A DNA stretch of 47,983 nt from Candidatus Ruminimicrobiellum bubulum (lineage in GTDB: Bacteria; Elusimicrobiota; Endomicrobiia; Endomicrobiales; Endomicrobiaceae), in assembly GCA_017651625.1 (NCBI GenBank), contig JAGCCP010000020.1:1-47983 (forward strand), written 5' to 3'. Below, one piece after another: positions 28,882 to 29,011 of the stretch. How positions within the stretch are numbered: the stretch's first letter is position 1; each line of letters starts with the position of its first letter. Made by a program: the position numbers and the translations under genes. The notes below the pieces were generated by a model, which was not told where the DNA came from, did no database searches, and saw only the letters and a program-made list of their open reading frames with translations.

Positions 28882-28942
28882 AAAAAAAGAATAATTCATC
28901 CGCTACTGCTTTATGAAAGCACCTTTGCTTTCTGAATTATTC
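28882..28942 (-). promoter_or_regulatory. Terminator-like structured leader of gdhA (candidate attenuator or riboswitch)
   Basis: Read on the minus strand, GAATAATTCA (28942-28933) pairs perfectly with TGAATTATTC (28898-28889) and is followed immediately by seven T (28888-28882). Inside, GAAAGC (28932-28927) pairs with GCTTTC (28920-28915). That same GCTTTC can instead pair with AAAGCA (28912-28907), giving two exclusive folds. The T-run ends 34 bases before the gdhA start. Confidence 0.65.
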
Positions 28943-28958
28943 AGTGTTCTATTAAAAC

Positions 28959-29011
28959 ATTATATAGTGTGATTGGAAAGTATTTTACATTTTTATTTTT
29001 TTATTTGTCAA
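28959..29011 (-). promoter_or_regulatory. Promoter region of gdhA
   Basis: On the minus strand TTGACA (29011-29006), 18-base spacer, TAAAAT (28987-28982). A second perfect TATAAT lies at 28964-28959 without a good -35. Either would transcribe through the hairpin leader. Confidence 0.55.

Follow-up and report, generated by a model that had tools for sequence, protein, structure and literature searches.

Targets of ANTAR proteins are hairpins with a hexanucleotide loop whose first and fourth positions are A and G, respectively (A1/G4) (Ramesh et al. 2012, PMC3369931), and a consensus for the eut sites, AGCAANGRRGCUY, is quoted in the accessible text of the same paper. The described antiterminators of this kind (EutV/eutP of Enterococcus faecalis, nasF and amiE) are dual-hexaloop RNAs. 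Lengthening the linker between the hexaloops abolished antitermination in vitro (PMC8934654), and the binding of NasR to a single hairpin was weaker (PMC7496416). In the 2022 paper on the structure of EutV, the definition of the minimal ANTAR motif was revised to one hexaloop; its available text also holds both hexaloops to be necessary for antitermination and urges that single-hexaloop sites be studied further, by bioinformatics as well as by experiment (PMC8934654). A dual stem-loop was the criterion of an actinobacterial survey, according to the sections available (PMC8164766). Nitrogen regulons under ANTAR control, with several nitrogen operons and overlapping terminators, are described for Desulfotomaculum and Pelobacter, where they were found with a two-hairpin model (Ramesh 2012, PMC3369931).

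Here, we analyzed the gdhA leader in a stretch of 47,983 nucleotides (the window) from Candidatus Ruminimicrobiellum bubulum. Like the dual-hexaloop antiterminators, this leader has a hairpin with an A1/G4 hexaloop, precedes a nitrogen gene, and contains an intrinsic terminator, and the genome encodes a REC-ANTAR protein. Unlike them, it has one hexaloop, with a ACUUAAUA box at the place of P1 (the first hairpin of the dual unit), and this hexaloop lies nested within the terminator and does not reach into its arm. The set of sites described below resembles the Desulfotomaculum and Pelobacter regulons but consists of single hexaloops and includes dapF, ddh, and gdhA. On balance, we favor the reading that the gdhA leader is an attenuator in a nitrogen-assimilation regulon run by the single REC-ANTAR protein of this genome. 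The features of the locus, all on the minus strand, are as follows.

27510-28847 (-): gdhA, NADP-specific glutamate dehydrogenase (445 aa, ATG at 28847)
28982-29011 (-): gdhA promoter TTGACA-18-TAAAAT, 11/12 consensus matches (TTGACA 29011-29006, 18-bp spacer, TAAAAT 28987-28982)
near 28975 (-): predicted gdhA transcription start
28938-28945 (-): box-like sequence ACTGAATA, 7/8 match to ACTTAATA
28933-28942 (-): terminator 5' arm GAATAATTCA
28915-28932 (-): ANTAR-type hairpin GAAAGC-AAAGGT-GCTTTC, with the hexaloop (A1 and G4) at 28926-28921
28908-28920 (-): alternative inner hairpin GCTTT-CAT-AAAGC
28889-28898 (-): terminator 3' arm TGAATTATTC
28882-28888 (-): U tract, seven T
28855-28860 (-): ribosome-binding site (SD) AAGGAG, read directly from the sequence

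The divergent neighbor of the gdhA promoter, at window 29031-29088 on the plus strand, consists of a groES promoter (TTGACA-17-TATAAT) followed by an inverted repeat, TTAGCAACT...GAGTGCTAA, that we take to be CIRCE-like.

A preliminary description of this DNA had reported a perfect 10-bp stem, followed at once by seven T, between the promoter and gdhA. Both are seen on the minus strand, where GAATAATTCA and TGAATTATTC pair over all 10 bp with U7 directly 3', as in an intrinsic terminator. The stem is low in G+C content and starts about 33 nt downstream of the predicted transcription start; it was missed by a simple terminator scan, the loop limit of which was 8. The fold of the leader is more stable than those of dinucleotide shuffles (z -2.96), with 2/200 shuffles equally stable. 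Leader structures can protect mRNA, and the stem could on that ground be seen as acting on translation or RNA stability and not on transcription; however, a perfect stem that runs straight into U7 and a ribosome-binding site that lies outside this stem make this extremely improbable.

Within the terminator, GCTTTC can indeed pair on either side as described, with GAAAGC upstream or AAAGC(A) downstream, both of which are read in the sequence, and the second pairing can be extended by one pair on each side to TGCTTT/AAAGCA. The folds were described as exclusive, which is true of the two inner folds with each other and not of either with the terminator, since each coexists with it. In ViennaRNA calculations, formation of the terminator gained -6.6 to -12.1 kcal/mol when the GAAAGC/GCTTTC hairpin was imposed as a constraint; when it was not, the gain was -7.4 to -12.1 kcal/mol, in the same 6/6 gdhA leaders computed. 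The proposal that the two-way inner pairing is the switch was thus dropped, both pairings being compatible with the terminator. The AAAGC(A) partner is also missing or changed in the close relatives L003 and L007.

The nearest relatives have the same kind of leader before gdhA, a conservation on which the preliminary description had made its proposal depend: both terminator arms and the inner hairpin are kept in ten gdhA leaders from the same genus and one sister genus. In the alignment of nine of them, 95.9% of the cells of terminator and hairpin are paired; the tenth, L010, was left out for a long insertion between the arms. This insertion carries another hairpin unit and a stretch of T. The suggested check on covariation was uninformative, as the sequences are near-invariant and the fold is neither supported nor refuted by it, while conservation of the fold itself held. 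A1 is kept in 9/10 and G4 in 10/10 of the close leaders (L008 has G at loop position 1) while the neighboring inner sequence drifts, and conservation is poor in the segment that separates the hexaloop from the 3' arm. Counting any loop on at least 4 pairs with a G-C closing pair in either order, A1/G4 accounts for 9 of the 16 hexaloop hairpins in these leaders, spread over 9/10 of them, and for 14/39 hexaloops in 19 other gdhA leaders (from 7 leaders; 40 hexaloops were used in the expectation test). Even use of the letters would give 1 in 16. No G-C-closed A1/G4 hexaloop is found at gdhA in the other genera of the family (L011-L019), most of whose genomes have an ANTAR gene, and this counts against ANTAR control of gdhA.

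The gdhA leader shares with the glutamine riboswitches (glnA RNA and Downstream-peptide) its place before a nitrogen gene; it differs from them in that Rfam gives no match to either model, in agreement with the earlier remark that it does not resemble them. A metabolite-binding riboswitch for glutamine, glutamate, ammonium, or 2-oxoglutarate would suit the leader position, the terminator, and the nitrogen gene. However, nothing in Rfam reaches the gathering score (with E up to 10, only implausible sub-threshold families appear), the close gdhA leaders contain no conserved aptamer-sized region, and their conserved core is an ANTAR hexaloop common to other genes, so that we regard a riboswitch as very unlikely. 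Judged from its sequence, the conserved core is a predicted protein-recognition hexaloop that also occurs at other nitrogen genes. The idea of a new nitrogen- or metabolite-responsive attenuator therefore survives as a nitrogen-linked leader attenuator; its metabolite-binding half is set aside by the Rfam result, the poor inner conservation, and the shared hexaloop.

The likeness to ANTAR sites is close at the hairpin itself. The gdhA sequence AGCAAAGGUGCUU matches the eut consensus AGCAANGRRGCUY at 12/13 positions, and the A1/G4 hexaloop, sought on at least 3 pairs, is AAAGGU on 6 pairs. The rest of the dual-hexaloop architecture differs: a second A1/G4 hexaloop with a short linker is absent from the gdhA leader, and the terminator, which overlaps P2 in dual-hexaloop ANTAR RNAs, here encloses a nested and compatible hairpin that has no overlap with its arm.

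One ANTAR protein is encoded in the genome (E 4.2e-17). It has REC and ANTAR domains and, by comparison with the PDB, is related in sequence to 1s8n and EutV; 1s8n is Rv1626 (PMC8934654). We compared it with the RNA-contact residues of EutV given in the accessible text of the structure paper (PMC8934654), the correspondence being counted by hand on the PDB alignment with an offset of 2. R142, K143, E160, Y164, R168, and M172 are kept, K147 and K149 are replaced by R, and N173, R175, and R177 by D, G, and T, respectively. The position of R175 is G, S, or A in 14/14 ANTAR domains of the family and R or K in 15/16 from other families (both counted by eye); these domains were read from match positions in 30 loci, a regular expression having found 11/31 loci. 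The sensor differs as well, with GAF-ANTAR in 8/8 other-family proteins and REC-ANTAR in the three family proteins scanned. Overall, 44/61 genomes have an ANTAR match. In the window's genome, the gene order amtB-PII-OprB-ANTAR-carA ties the ANTAR protein to nitrogen. In several family genomes (G011, G014, G019, G021-G024, G030, and G034), the ANTAR match follows glnA on the same strand at a distance of a few hundred bases, which suggests a glnA-ANTAR operon. Locus L129 (210-1877, minus strand) encodes a single protein in which an ammonium transporter is fused to a PII domain.

The genome contains 11 matches to the pattern AGCAANGNNGCT vs 7 to the reversed control. Six of the 11 are in leaders (gdhA, glnA, amtB, dapF, ddh, and the ANTAR gene), and five fall within reading frames and look like chance matches. 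The amtB of this genome has two additional hexaloop units. NCBIfam confirmed the products GlnA, DapF, DAP dehydrogenase, ammonium transporter, PII, and CarA. At glnA, amtB, dapF, ddh, and the ANTAR gene, but not at gdhA, the hexaloop shares sequence with the 5' arm of the following stem, which is the classic attenuation layout; hexaloop and stem are mutually exclusive by 11.6-17.6 kcal/mol in the 4/4 sites other than gdhA that were computed. The overlapping stem of the ANTAR gene itself is without a clear U tract.

This difference in layout bears on the direction of control. If binding of the ANTAR protein joined the arms and promoted termination, gdhA would be off when glnA and amtB are on. 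Opposite control of glutamate dehydrogenase and of glutamine synthetase with AmtB is physiologically sensible, and terminator and hexaloop are compatible in 6/6 gdhA leaders while being exclusive at the 4/4 other sites. Yet the gdhA leader of a class-level relative (L026) has, as read by eye, the ordinary overlapping layout, which predicts activation, and so has ddh, the product of which uses ammonia. We also know of no ANTAR protein that promotes termination, and we consider such inverse control unlikely. The nested geometry could also belong to a fixed attenuator that sets a low basal level of gdhA, or to a vestigial site, with the hexaloop a relic of an earlier overlapping ANTAR site. The occurrence of the site only in the closest genus and a single sister genus, and its weak score with the family model (see below), fit this account, whereas retention of A1 and G4 while the neighboring inner sequence drifts argues against it and leaves it decidedly unlikely. 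On the simplest reading, the gdhA site probably works by antitermination through the ANTAR protein.

Similar sites were found across the bacterial family with R2, a model built from five sites of the window's own genome. R2 acts partly as a terminator model, giving antisense matches and weak matches in ANTAR-less genomes, and the family counts were therefore made on hexaloop features instead. A strict site script gave 53 sites in 37/60 stretches; the remaining 23 stretches were dropped. These sites precede glnA, amtB, dapF, ddh, purF, the ANTAR gene, and type III glutamine synthetase, as well as PotD-like binding proteins, a DUF1989 protein, and others. Leaders picked without the motif are enriched in the same loops: A1/G4 accounts for 24/75 hexaloops in the 25 amtB leaders of ANTAR-bearing family members (two of which, of 11 and 155 nt, are shortened by contig ends) and for 13/38 hexaloops in glnA leaders. 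By hand count, an A1/G4 loop whose second base is a purine is present in 17/25 amtB leaders of ANTAR-bearing members vs 0/4 of ANTAR-less members, in which the two A1/G4 loops are both ACTGTT. For glnA this comparison could not be made, since none of the nine ANTAR-less family genomes searched has a type I glnA over the cut-off.

Thirteen family sites from outside the window's genus show both-sided changes at 3/5 hairpin pairs (12 cells), a number reached in 0/500 shuffles, although these sites had been selected for pairing. The genomes compared are related and not independent, and some are incomplete. A second hexaloop at the place of P1 was rejected for the family: another A1/G4 hexaloop lies within 45 nt upstream in just 2/50 distinct sites (2/79 hexaloops), nothing beyond background, in a search that allowed 3-bp stems and any Watson-Crick closing pair, and both of these have A/T-only or G-U stems. 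Other families of the phylum do have paired hexaloops, as in L020, a gdhA leader in which the linkers measure 11 and 4 nt. In locus L146 (605-825, plus strand), three successive hexaloop-terminator units, about 103 and 117 nt apart, precede amtB.

What the family sites do have is the ACUUAAUA box, about 8-13 nt upstream of the hexaloop. In the form ACTTAATA, which was defined post hoc, after the sequences had been seen, it is found with 8/8 letters in 9/50 sites (0.25 expected from shuffles) and with at least 7/8 letters in 23/50 (6.3 expected); 18 of these 23 boxes end 8-13 nt before the loop (hand count). At 7/8 letters or more, it occurs within 22 nt of the -10 element in 24/48 hexaloop-bearing promoters vs 9/421 others, with a Fisher p of 7e-20 that is overstated, since the genomes are related. 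A general promoter feature was considered and rejected on the count for those 421 other promoters. At gdhA, ACTGAATA ends 11 nt before the hexaloop, with the same variant and spacing as in the ANTAR-gene leader of G013 (L061), and it overlaps the terminator 5' arm. The leader combines, as computed, the terminator, the conserved A1/G4 hexaloop, and a box-like sequence at the usual spacing, in a genome with one ANTAR gene and shared sites at nitrogen genes.

A held-out model, R3, was built from other genera only. Its top four matches in the genome are glnA, the ANTAR gene, and two amtB units (E 0.0025-0.045). The gdhA site is absent from its seven matches up to E 10 in this genome search; within the window it is the best match, at 28914-28949, and weak (15.7 bits, E 1.1). 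On the ten gdhA loci, R3 gave five matches up to E 1, all at the hexaloop site (E 0.33-0.99). These weak scores make gdhA a divergent member of the set.

We infer that the ANTAR protein binds at gdhA, and with it the direction and the signal of control. Without active ANTAR protein, the 10-bp stem and U7 would form and many transcripts would stop about 95 nt after the start. By analogy with EutV, the active state would be the one phosphorylated on the receiver domain. The active protein may then grip the hexaloop AAAGGU together with the adjacent upstream ACUGAAUA, which is within reach by proximity. As ACUGAAUA belongs to the terminator 5' arm, holding it would keep the terminator stem open and allow read-through into gdhA. 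The hexaloop itself is off the terminator arm and holding it leaves the terminator unweakened in the calculations, so that antitermination here needs the box or steric blocking. It is possible, and we offer this tentatively, that the ANTAR system of the family has been rebuilt, with a protein lacking the equivalent of EutV R175, one hexaloop with a linear ACUUAAUA box at the place of P1, and, at gdhA, a terminator that competes with the box rather than the hairpin, giving two wirings with perhaps opposite outcomes.

The novelty suggested in the preliminary description stands in part. Nitrogen genes have been reported before to be under ANTAR control (PMC3369931); the layout of one hexaloop plus box is absent from the literature found. 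Among the literature matches listed, none concerned ANTAR control in Elusimicrobia or Endomicrobia (a weak negative, as mostly Antarctic papers were returned) and none an established single-hexaloop terminator site (likewise a weak negative). New with respect to the literature found are the single-hexaloop family sites with the ACUUAAUA box and the ANTAR proteins without the R175 arginine of EutV. The whole family appears to use single hexaloops before terminators of core nitrogen genes, accompanied by the substitution of an RNA-contact residue and a swap of the sensor domain, and provides a natural case for testing why ANTAR sites elsewhere require two hairpins.

Finally, seven of the 80 gdhA loci, all from Clostridia (L165, L166, L167, L169, L170, L171, and L172), have a 7-bp hairpin with the A1/G4 loop AATGGC or AATGGA about 13 nt before the start of the tblastn match, apparently over the gdhA start codon. 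This is possibly an ANTAR-type translational site, or a chance product of the coding sequence.
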